Shown here: positions 13,633 through 26,851 of the stretch, piece after piece | How the letters are laid out: the number at the start of each line of letters is the position of its first letter | How positions within the stretch are numbered: position 1 is the first letter of the stretch | Source: a virus | Length of the DNA: 64,000 nt | Virus record (IMG/VR): IMGVR_UViG_3300044609_000595 | Coordinates: 1-64,000 of that record | Strand: one strand, 5' to 3' | The notes under the pieces: model-generated | Told to the model about the DNA's origin: nothing | The model's database searches: none | What the model saw: the letters and a program-made list of their open reading frames with translations, nothing else | Translations under genes and position numbers: made by a program

Positions 13633-13702
13633 ATAAATGAGATAGAGTTCAAGTCCCTGTTATATCCTTGAGGTATATCACACTTGAACCATCAAAAATA
13701 TT

Positions 13703-13787
13703 GGAAGTGTGGCCGAGTGGTTGAAGGCACTTGTCTTGAAAACAAGCAACGTGAAAGCGTTCGTGGGTTCGAATCCTACCACTTCCG
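13703..13787 (+). tRNA. tRNA-Ser (anticodon TGA)
   Basis: A 7-bp acceptor stem (GGAAGTG with CACTTCC), discriminator G, anticodon loop CTTGAAA with TGA, a long variable arm typical of serine tRNAs and a GGTTCGAATCC T-arm. CCA is not encoded. It reads UCA and other UCN codons, which are common in this AT-rich genome. Confidence 0.95.
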
Positions 13788-13805
13788 TTCAACTTAAAAC
13801 CTTAA

Positions 13806-22343: not shown

Positions 22344-22691
22344 ATGCGTGTACAATCAGCTAAAGCAAAAGGACGTAGATTACAGCAGTGGGTGAGAGAT
22401 AAACTCATTGAAATGCTTGATGTTCATCCAGAAGATATTGAAAGCAGATCTATGGGTGCTGGCGGCGAGGATCTTATTATGGCAAGAGCTGCCAGACAAA
22501 AGTTTCCCCATAGTATTGAATGTAAGAACGTTGAAAAACTAAATATTTGGGATGCCTATGAGCAAGCATCTGCCAACTGTGGTGACTACGAACCGCTTGT
22601 TGTCATCAAAAAGAATGGTAAGAAACCATTAGTTGTTATAGATGCAGAGTATTACATTCAATTATTCGGAGACAAAGATGACAAGAATTGA
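22344..22691 (+). CDS. putative PD-(D/E)XK endonuclease, 115 aa
   Basis: Small protein with MGAGGEDLIM followed by FPHSIECKNVEKLN, giving the D...(E)xK signature (the IECKN strand) of the restriction-endonuclease fold, plus a helix with DAYEQA (Q-motif position). Similar small nucleases near nrd genes are often annotated as endonucleases in cyanophages. A role in degrading host DNA or resolving branched DNA is inferred. It overlaps the next gene by 14 nt. Confidence 0.7.
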   Translation: MRVQSAKAKGRRLQQWVRDKLIEMLDVHPEDIESRSMGAGGEDLIMARAARQKFPHSIECKNVEKLNIWDAYEQASANCGDYEPLVVIKKNGKKPLVVIDAEYYIQLFGDKDDKN

Positions 22692-23373
22692 TTTACATAA
22701 CTTCTTCAAACATTTTGATGAGAACAATCCAAAGCATGTTGCTGCAGTAGAGCAACTTGAGATTGATATGAAAGATTCTCCTCTACTTGAGGATACATCT
22801 AATTGGGTCAGAATTTATAGAACACAACCAGACAAACCAAAATCATCAATTCTTGTTGTGCCTTTCTATCCACAGACAGACAATTACAGAGATGCTGACC
22901 GCACTTGTAACAGTTCTTCTTGTGCGATGTGTCTCGAATATTTTAAACCAGGCACATTAAAAGGATCTAAGGGCGATGATGCTTATGTTCAAAAAGTATT
23001 TTCAATTGGAGATACCACAGATCACTTAGTTCAAACCCGTGCTCTTGCGTCGTATGGTATTAAATCCGATTTCTCTTATAGCCTTTCTTTTACTGATCTT
23101 GATAGAGAGCTTGCCGCTGGCAGACCTATTGTTATTGGTATTCTTCATAGAGGTTCTTTATCTGCTCCCACAGGCGGGCACATGGTAGTAGTTATTGGAA
23201 AGACTGCTTCTGGTGATTACGTCGTGAACGACCCCTACGGCAGCCTTAACGACGGCTATACTGGTTCGGTAGGGAATGGCAAGGGAGCTGTCTACAAACG
23301 CTCTGAGCTGGCTCGTAGGTGGTGCCCAGGAGGTAATGATGGATGGGGTAGAATCTTCGACGCAAAAAAGTAG
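22678..23373 (+). CDS. C39/papain-like cysteine peptidase domain protein (zero-frame product)
   Basis: Reads as a 231-aa peptidase_C39_2-type domain: VPFYPQTDNYRDADRTCNSSSC contains the likely nucleophile Cys, TGGHMVVVIG the catalytic His and VVNDPYGS the Asn/Asp. ATG 22678 is preferred over an upstream ATG at 22642 because it overlaps the preceding stop as other genes here do. It ends in AAA AAG TAG, where a -1 slip would extend it into a lysozyme domain (23370-23858). Likely cleaves peptide crosslinks in peptidoglycan or a bacteriocin-like substrate; the lysis context favours the former. Confidence 0.75.
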   Translation: MTRIDLHNFFKHFDENNPKHVAAVEQLEIDMKDSPLLEDTSNWVRIYRTQPDKPKSSILVVPFYPQTDNYRDADRTCNSSSCAMCLEYFKPGTLKGSKGDDAYVQKVFSIGDTTDHLVQTRALASYGIKSDFSYSLSFTDLDRELAAGRPIVIGILHRGSLSAPTGGHMVVVIGKTASGDYVVNDPYGSLNDGYTGSVGNGKGAVYKRSELARRWCPGGNDGWGRIFDAKK

Positions 23374-23419
23374 ATTCAACACCACAACACAATCAAAAAA
23401 TTCCTCAAAGTGGTGTTGA
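23364..23419 (+). promoter_or_regulatory. programmed -1 ribosomal frameshift signal
   Basis: The heptamer A_AAA_AAG (23364-23370, zero-frame codons GCA AAA AAG) is followed at once by TAG. After a 5-nt spacer there is a perfect 10-bp stem, TCAACACCAC (23376-23385) with GTGGTGTTGA (23410-23419), 24-nt loop. This is the slippery sequence used in E. coli dnaX. The -1 frame is open only from 23352, so the slip site falls inside the 22-nt window where a shift can work. Confidence 0.75.
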
Positions 23420-23858
23420 TTTAATTAAAGAATTCGAGGGATGTCATTTACATTCATACCCAGATCCTAAAACTGGGGGAGACCCCATTACAATTGGGTG
23501 GGGAAGTACCAGAGATTTTAATGGAACTTCATTTAAACTTGGTAAAAAGATCACTCAAGAATATGCTGATAGACTTTTAATATTTGATATTGAAAATAGA
23601 TTTTTACCTACGTTAGAAAAAATTCCGTACTGGGGAGAGATGAATGACAATCAAAGGGGGACTTTACTTTGCTTTGCTTACAATCTTGGTGCAGATTTCT
23701 ATGGTTCTTCTGACTTCAATACTATTACACGGACATTAAAAAATAAAGAATGGTCTAAAGTACCTGATGCTCTTTATTTTTATAGAAATCCTGGTAGTAA
23801 TGTGGAAGCAGGATTAGCAAGAAGAAGAAAAGCTGAAGGAAAACTTTGGATAAGTTAG
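23370..23858 (+). CDS. GH24 phage lysozyme domain, reached by -1 frameshift from the peptidase gene
   Basis: In the -1 frame the sequence reads VDLIKEFEGCHLHSYPDP, then PITIGWGS, then a C-terminal NLGADFYGSSDFNTI and GLARRRKAEGKLW. This is a full phage-type lysozyme, with catalytic Glu in KEFEG and Asp and Thr in the following turn. No ATG, GTG or TTG occurs in this frame between its opening at 23352 and the conserved domain; the first ATG (23640) would remove the active site. Frameshifting would give a 393-aa peptidase-lysozyme fusion. A one-base sequencing error in the A run would also explain it. Confidence 0.8.
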   Translation, partial: VDSTPQHNQKIPQSGVDLIKEFEGCHLHSYPDPKTGGDPITIGWGSTRDFNGTSFKLGKKITQEYADRLLIFDIENRFLPTLEKIPYWGEMNDNQRGTLLCFAYNLGADFYGSSDFNTITRTLKNKEWSKVPDALYFYRNPGSNVEAGLARRRKAEGKLWIS

Positions 23859-25296: not shown

Positions 25297-25370
25297 GTCT
25301 CGGTAGCTCAGTTGGATAGAGCATCTGCCTTCTAAGCAGTTGGTCACAGGTTCAAGTCCTGTCCGAGACG
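25297..25370 (+). tRNA. tRNA-Arg (anticodon TCT)
   Basis: A 7-bp acceptor stem GTCTCGG/CCGAGAC, discriminator G, D-arm with AGCTCAGTTGGATAGAGC, anticodon loop CTTCTAA, T-arm GGTTCAAGTCC. Reads AGA codons, frequent in AT-rich phage genes and rarer in marine Synechococcus. CCA not encoded. Confidence 0.95.
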
Positions 25371-25374
25371 CCTT

Positions 25375-25446
25375 GGGCGATTAACTCAGCGGTAGAGTGC
25401 CTCCTTTACACGGAGATGGTCACTGGTTCGAATCCAGTATCGCCCA
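25375..25446 (+). tRNA. tRNA-Val (anticodon TAC)
   Basis: Acceptor stem GGGCGAT/ATCGCCC, discriminator A, anticodon loop TTTACAC, T-arm GGTTCGAATCC. Only 4 nt after tRNA-Arg, so the two are cotranscribed. Confidence 0.95.
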
Positions 25447-25465
25447 TTACATTAATAAATAAACC

Positions 25466-25738
25466 ATGGAAGAAATTCAAAATGAATTGAAAGATATCAA
25501 AAGGATGTTGAACGATGTTAATAGTCAGATGCAAGAATTGCGGGAAGCAATTAGAGGAGCACCCTTCCCAACTCAGATGCTGCCAATGCCCCAACCTTAC
25601 GAGCATCCGTGGTGGCAATATCAGCGGAGTGGACCTGTCATTGGTAGAAATTATCAGTGGAGCCAAGTCCAAGCGTCAGGATCAATCAATCTTGACGAAA
25701 CAGGATCTACAGTTTCAGGAGCAGCGAAAGCAGCGTAA
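25466..25738 (+). CDS. hypothetical protein with N-terminal coiled coil, 90 aa
   Basis: Residues 1-30 form a heptad helix (MEEIQNELKDIKRMLNDVNS), followed by a Pro/Trp/Tyr-rich stretch (PTQMLPMPQPYEHPWWQYQ) and a Gly/Ser-rich tail. An alternative frame over 25515-25769 is open too, but this frame has the coherent helix. AATAAATA precedes the ATG by only a few bases. Function unknown. Confidence 0.5.
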   Translation: MEEIQNELKDIKRMLNDVNSQMQELREAIRGAPFPTQMLPMPQPYEHPWWQYQRSGPVIGRNYQWSQVQASGSINLDETGSTVSGAAKAA

Positions 25739-25792
25739 AGTTCGTAAATTGGATTTTGAAATAAGATGAGACATTTGATTGTCACCATGATG

Positions 25793-25857
25793 GAGAACCC
25801 ACTATTAGTATCGCTAATGGGTTCTCTATTGATCATTCCCCCGATCTGTGGTATCAT
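25793..25857 (+). promoter_or_regulatory. hairpin followed by promoter for tRNA-Pro
   Basis: GAGAACCC (25793-25800) pairs with GGGTTCTC (25819-25826), with an inner ATTAG/CTAAT pairing, but no T run follows. Just after it come TTGATC (25829-25834), a 17-nt spacer and TATCAT (25852-25857), 22 nt before tRNA-Pro. Confidence 0.5.
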
Positions 25858-25878
25858 GATCATACATCGGAAACCTAA

Positions 25879-25952
25879 CGGAATGTAGCTCAGTTTGGTA
25901 GAGCACTCGCTTTGGGAGCGAGATGTCGCAGGTTCGAATCCTGTCATTCCGA
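25879..25952 (+). tRNA. tRNA-Pro (anticodon TGG)
   Basis: Acceptor stem CGGAATG/CATTCCG with the C1-G72 pair typical of bacterial tRNA-Pro, discriminator A, anticodon loop TTTGGGA, T-arm GGTTCGAATCC. Confidence 0.95.
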
Positions 25953-26779: not shown

Positions 26780-26851
26780 GCGGTTGTAGTTCAGTGGTAG
26801 AACGCTATCCTTCCAAGTTAGATGTCGCCCGTTCGAATCGGGTCAGCCGCT
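26780..26851 (+). tRNA. tRNA-Gly (anticodon TCC)
   Basis: Acceptor stem GCGGTTG/CAGCCGC (one mismatch-type pair), anticodon loop CTTCCAA, T-arm CCGTTCGAATCGG. Reads GGA. The 149 nt before it hold no gene but several C- and G-rich runs that may fold. The downstream SLH-protein mRNA would include this tRNA, implying processing. Confidence 0.93.

Follow-up and report, generated by a model that had tools for sequence, protein, structure and literature searches.

The window, a stretch of 64,000 nucleotides taken from positions 1 to 64,000 of the 110-kb virus record IMGVR_UViG_3300044609_000595, carries a gene for a C39-like cysteine peptidase that ends in ...TTC GAC GCA AAA AAG TAG and is followed by ATTCAACACCAC. 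Upstream lie genes for ribonucleotide reductase subunits, followed by a small gene whose end overlaps with the start of the peptidase gene, an arrangement that is identical in Synechococcus phage S-PM2. The last base of GCA and the two lysine codons form the heptamer A_AAA_AAG, in the X_XXY_YYZ phase that is correct for -1 slippage. A perfect stem of 10 bp follows, with a spacer of 5 nt and a loop of 24 nt (Table 1). A GH24 lysozyme is encoded in the -1 frame, which is open from 23352 to a TAG at 23856-23858 and whose first ATG, GTG or TTG is an ATG at 23640, downstream of the catalytic Glu, Asp and Thr. The stop context of the peptidase gene, GTAG, holds no overlapping start codon of the type found in translationally coupled pairs. 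An original prediction, made from the letters of the window, had described the heptamer, spacer, stem, loop and the lysozyme without a start before its active site, and had proposed two products of 231 aa and 393 aa formed through a -1 frameshift. The coordinates were reproduced here, the lengths agree (231 aa and 231+162=393 aa), and the two products are supported by homologues.

Table 1. Elements of the peptidase-lysozyme locus, in window positions
Element	Position	Strand	Basis
Peptidase gene, zero frame, C39-like cysteine peptidase, 231 aa	22678..23373	+	sequence, Pfam, invariant residues, fold
Slippery heptamer A_AAA_AAG	23364..23370	+	read directly; xxA AAA AAG in 95/96 Lys-Lys-ending relatives
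Zero-frame stop TAG abutting the heptamer, counted in the 5-nt spacer	23371..23373	+	read directly; TAG preference in relatives
Putative stimulatory stem, 5′ arm TCAACACCAC	23376..23385	+	sequence, folding, comparison
Stem 3′ arm GTGGTGTTGA, also coding for the lysozyme N-terminal S-G-V-D region	23410..23419	+	sequence, folding, comparison
GH24 lysozyme part, -1 frame, VDSTPQ...LWIS, 162 aa and stop	23370..23858	+	Pfam; conserved catalytic E, D, T
Complete recoded gene, predicted 393-aa peptidase-lysozyme fusion	22678..23858	+	same domain order in in-frame fusion relatives

The protein identities first proposed, a C39-like peptidase and a GH24 lysozyme, agree with matches to the Pfam families Peptidase_C39_2 (E=1.1e-12) and Phage_lysozyme (E=7e-20), and the gene products also match PHROG lysis families. 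In the peptidase, Cys77, His168 and Asp185 are invariant among 28 relatives, and AlphaFold together with Foldseek gives a papain-like/C39 fold, while no solved structure was matched by sequence. In the lysozyme, the catalytic E, D and T are 99-100% conserved over 162 sequences, and conservation is 97-100% when most core residues are included. Thus, with a Cys-His-Asp set in a C39/papain-like fold and intact lysozyme catalytic residues, the products are likely to form an endolysin with two activities, which would degrade the peptidoglycan of the host.

Taken by itself, the window makes a case for frameshifting that is only suggestive. The motif AAAAAAG occurs 47 times in the 64 kb, against 32 expected; the fold has a z of -2.7, a value matched by 3/200 shuffles; and a search of the region against Rfam returned no known frameshift element. 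Sites of the dnaX type have a Shine-Dalgarno-like stimulator about 10 nt ahead of the heptamer; the window has a GGGG 15 nt upstream, but this codes for a conserved Trp-Gly. Because the window alone is only suggestive, relatives were gathered, and conservation among them takes the site far beyond chance.

Approximately 560 related loci from viral contigs and isolates were grouped into 170 clusters at 95% identity. The loci L159-L272 came from a scan for the heptamer pattern, which selects for the heptamer, and were therefore excluded from every proportion, leaving 146 clusters. The peptidase and lysozyme adjoin each other in a -1 relation in 411/517 loci, a count that still includes duplicates. 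Most clusters (84/146, of which 81 plus 3 with GTG at the stop) have the frameshift layout with an in-phase A_AAA_AAG; in 13 the heptamer coexists with a stop that a start codon overlaps (ATGA, GTGA or TTGA), another 18 either are overlap-coupled and lack the heptamer or are unclear, 23 have an in-frame fusion, mostly from a single clade around the marine ACG-2014f phages, 2 have T_TTT_TTT as in phage S-CAM7, and 6 have separate genes. Within the frameshift layout, the two frames overlap by just 13 nt in 54/84 clusters, which leaves space for scarcely more than the heptamer and a stop. The lysozyme frame of 41/84 clusters, namely the window and 40 others, has no ATG, GTG or TTG ahead of the catalytic Glu; a start codon is present with no Shine-Dalgarno-like word in 39/84, and both occur in only 4/84. 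As judged from these sequences, a large group of cyanobacterial viruses apparently makes its lysozyme solely when ribosomes slip one letter back where the upstream peptidase gene ends.

The codons of the heptamer are under synonymous constraint. Where the peptidase has a Lys-Lys end, as it does in 96 clusters, an xxA codon is always followed by AAA, and the next codon is AAG in 95 and AAA in 1, whereas Lys-Lys elsewhere in the same genes is written AAA AAG in 14/99 cases. Other conserved lysine columns of the alignment include several that vary between AAA and AAG, and GCA and GTA represent 38% of the Ala codons and 29% of the Val codons of these genes, respectively. As the Lys-Lys-ending clusters have common ancestry, no simple probability is stated for this pattern. 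The stop codon is constrained as well: after the heptamer region, TAG is preferred over TAA and TGA in 70/84 frameshift-layout clusters, against 8/81 lysozyme stops (Fisher p about 6e-23, uncorrected for ancestry). A stop codon that is served by a single release factor might favor slippage.

Conservation of the heptamer under synonymous constraint, and of the stem, is what the original prediction had asked of homologues, and both are found. A helix lies 3′ of the heptamer in 101/101 clusters in which the stop comes directly after it, with 6-17 bp (median 11); the search could settle on whichever helix was best within a range of offsets, which makes the spacer lengths approximate. The score of these helices is 25.2, against 12.9 for shuffled sequences, and falls to 14.3 (sd 0.65) when the 5′ arms are swapped between loci. 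There are 73 distinct 5′ arms, and wholly different stem families, such as TCAACACCAC/GTGGTGTTGA, GCCAACTAAC/GTTAGTTGGC and AGTTCTACTCC/GGAGTAGAACT, along with single cases (L216, L422, L559), base-pair with differing codons of the lysozyme N-terminus, which suggests that stems probably arose more than once. In the family of the window, 5/13 pairs have changed on both sides, a number reached by 0/500 shuffles, and pairing drops from 97% to 30-38% if the partner is shifted by one column. By contrast, helices are at chance level in the in-frame fusions (median 5.5 bp) and in the start-overlap relatives (7 bp), so the stem is gone where other solutions are used. A 3′ structure is therefore found a few nucleotides past the heptamer and conserved with compensatory change, as in -1 frameshift sites.

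The same signals are present in a model phage. The orthologous gene of S-PM2 (p153/p154) has GCA AAA AAG TAA and an 11-bp stem (fold z -3.1), like the window, and the site is found in two genome sequences. The S-PM2 record lists instead a hypothetical protein and a 72-aa lysin that starts at an internal ATG, with no frameshift annotated. The database lysin genes of S-PM2 (L002, 1557-1775) and S-CAM7 (L007, L591, L592) begin too far in, at an internal ATG, and so miss the catalytic residues; the true lysozyme starts upstream, in the frame that is reached by the shift.

The site and its phase, the constraint on its codons, the covarying stem and the absence of any other lysozyme start, all of them established by sequence and comparison, argue that a two-domain phage endolysin gene is decoded through programmed -1 ribosomal frameshifting, a reading to which we give a probability of roughly 0.93. 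Ribosomes would read the peptidase up to GCA AAA AAG, where each of the two sites over A_AAA_AAG would be occupied by tRNA-Lys. With the stem-loop a few bases ahead, some of them would slip one base back, to AAA AAA, bypass the adjacent TAG and translate the lysozyme, giving the 393-aa peptidase-lysozyme, while those that do not slip would terminate and release the 231-aa peptidase. We infer that it is the ribosome that slips, often enough in the cyanobacterial host to be useful, and, less surely, that the two products act in lysis, free peptidase being the more abundant and the fusion combining both cutting activities. In E. coli, the heptamer works because a single tRNA-Lys(UUU) reads both AAA and AAG (PMC5009743). 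With approximate patterns, tRNA-Lys(UUU) was detected in 93/96 cyanobacterial genomes and the CUU form in 17/96, the latter in 0 genomes smaller than 2.7 Mb, a range into which most picocyanobacteria fall. The phage record has 12 tRNA genes (window 13702-13788, 25297-25952 and 26780-26851; L578 4878-7835), none of which is a tRNA-Lys.

Other explanations for this arrangement were considered. The original prediction had feared that the A run was misread and that the true gene, with seven As, is a continuous fusion. The window does come from a metagenome-derived record, and two relatives (L306, L131) have seven As, an open fusion and a stem that is retained. Nevertheless, six As are found in the same phase in over 80 distinct clusters, which come from many metagenomes, and in S-PM2, which was sequenced twice, and neither the conservation of xxA AAA AAG nor a covarying stem is expected from error. 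The sequences compared rule out error as a general explanation, and for the window it is extremely unlikely. An RNA polymerase that stutters on the A run, producing a mixed pool of mRNAs of which part encodes an in-frame fusion, would also profit from a homopolymer, and in S-CAM7 the length of the run, eight Ts, makes it worth considering. Polymerase slippage normally requires longer runs, however, and needs neither phase nor spacing. The six As of the window stand in one codon phase, closed by a G and beside a stop, with a stem at ribosomal spacing; transcriptional slippage is thus very improbable at this site.

The lysozyme could instead be a separate protein, produced without frameshifting by ribosomes that re-initiate at the stop of the peptidase or close to it. 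Start-stop overlaps do exist in relatives, of which 13 clusters have the heptamer as well and about 18 lack it, yet the window and the 40 other clusters described above offer no start ahead of the catalytic Glu, and the stem is absent from the coupled relatives, so that stem and start codon look mutually alternative. This makes such coupling a very unlikely account of the window. Relatives with a normal start and no slippery site are also what the original prediction had named as evidence against itself. They exist (about 18/146 clusters), but they occupy separate branches and have lost the stem too, which is consistent with the frameshift reading and does not refute it. Finally, a lysozyme with no start codon of its own might be a decaying remnant next to a peptidase that is used alone; given the conservation of its catalytic and core residues, and of the linking signal itself, the probability of this is close to negligible.

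The frameshift layout is not the only one that this gene family has adopted. On the tree, at least 18 swaps are counted among frameshift, start-overlap coupling, fusion and separate genes. Three in-frame members with a retained stem (L306, L131 and L297) lie within or beside the frameshift clade. At the junction of L297, A_AAA_AAG and the stem are kept and the stop is lost; there, the fusion comes from the zero frame, and slipping by -1 would lead to a short product. These three members may be recent conversions or, in the seven-A cases, homopolymer errors in the direction opposite to that feared for the window. The S-CAM7-like phages (L007, L273, L274, L591, L592) have an eight-T run and a bipartite hairpin instead of A_AAA_AAG. 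In S-CAM7, a 13-bp hairpin (z -3.0) stands 3′ of T_TTT_TTT and is the same in three isolates and one contig, while a change in another contig preserves a G-U pair; the eight-T run of this group might permit polymerase slippage. The fusion protein of cyanophage ACG-2014f has the identical two domains in identical order but, unlike the window, in a single continuous frame without stop or stem. Among the coupled relatives, L130, L145, L404, L418, L519 and their kin have about 50 extra N-terminal residues before the lysozyme domain (MTIKFxDAV...), which frameshift members do not have.

At the window locus, the ratio of the two products would be set by the shift rate. It is conceivable, though rather unlikely, that shifting keeps free peptidase in a defined excess relative to peptidase-lysozyme, that both assemble as a mixed endolysin, and that the rate follows the state of the infected cell and thereby helps to time cyanophage lysis. 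The in-frame members in or next to the frameshift clade indicate that the fusion by itself can suffice, and the 31 clusters that are overlap-coupled (13 with the heptamer) or unclear indicate that free lysozyme can suffice too. With relatives that have free lysozyme, only a fusion or, as in S-CREM1, the reversed order, an exact ratio seems dispensable in some lineages.

The mechanism itself is known: it is a standard -1 programmed frameshift of the dnaX/IS3 type. The window gene shares with E. coli dnaX the A_AAA_AAG heptamer, a 3′ stem at short spacing and the logic of a sole tRNA-Lys(UUU), but the dnaX shift shortens the product, whereas that of the window extends it beyond the stop. Transposases of the IS3 family (A_AAA_AAG group) likewise have a short terminated product, a long -1 fusion and a 3′ stem (PMC4066793), although in a gene, function and genome context unrelated to those of the window gene. 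The phage tail assembly chaperone (lambda G/GT type) is also a conserved phage frameshift gene with short and long products, and some T4-like phages have a fused equivalent of it (PMC10885494); it acts in structural assembly, while the window gene encodes a predicted lytic enzyme. The nearest precedent found is a Lactococcus phage lysin, which is cited among frameshift-containing genes (PMC10885494) and belongs to another host and another phage group. A literature search that joined cyanophage, endolysin and programmed frameshift found no paper, and the searched text of the GeneTack survey and of the Atkins review mentions neither lysozyme nor endolysin. Thus, an endolysin made by frameshifting and conserved across cyanophages, or a two-domain endolysin made in this manner, appears undescribed in the papers searched, in line with the original prediction, which knew of no such cyanophage enzyme. 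The frameshift reading explains the seemingly headless lysin of cyanophage genomes, including that of the model phage S-PM2, and places a lytic enzyme among the few frameshift genes that phages are known to conserve. Current annotations miss the fusion, and gene callers that choose an internal ATG report an inactive lysin fragment. Moreover, as layouts were swapped repeatedly and diverse stems recur within one gene family, it offers a natural comparison for direct study of how recoding signals are gained and lost.

Some further variants of the two domains were observed. In S-CREM1 (L004) and in L037, the domain order is reversed, with lysozyme and then peptidase in one frame. Peptidase relatives with 55-62% identity are found in Arthrospira and Roseofilum genomes (L570, L572, L574), cyanobacterial genomes, that of Arthrospira among them, hold relatives that lack the lysozyme, and the Arthrospira peptidase relative adjoins ordinary chromosomal genes. 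In S-CRM01 (L589, 1540-1620), the lysozyme frame is broken mid-domain near CTAAAAGAAAAAGATGG, a break that could be a sequencing indel, and the second part of the lysozyme is joined to an apparent L,D-transpeptidase domain.
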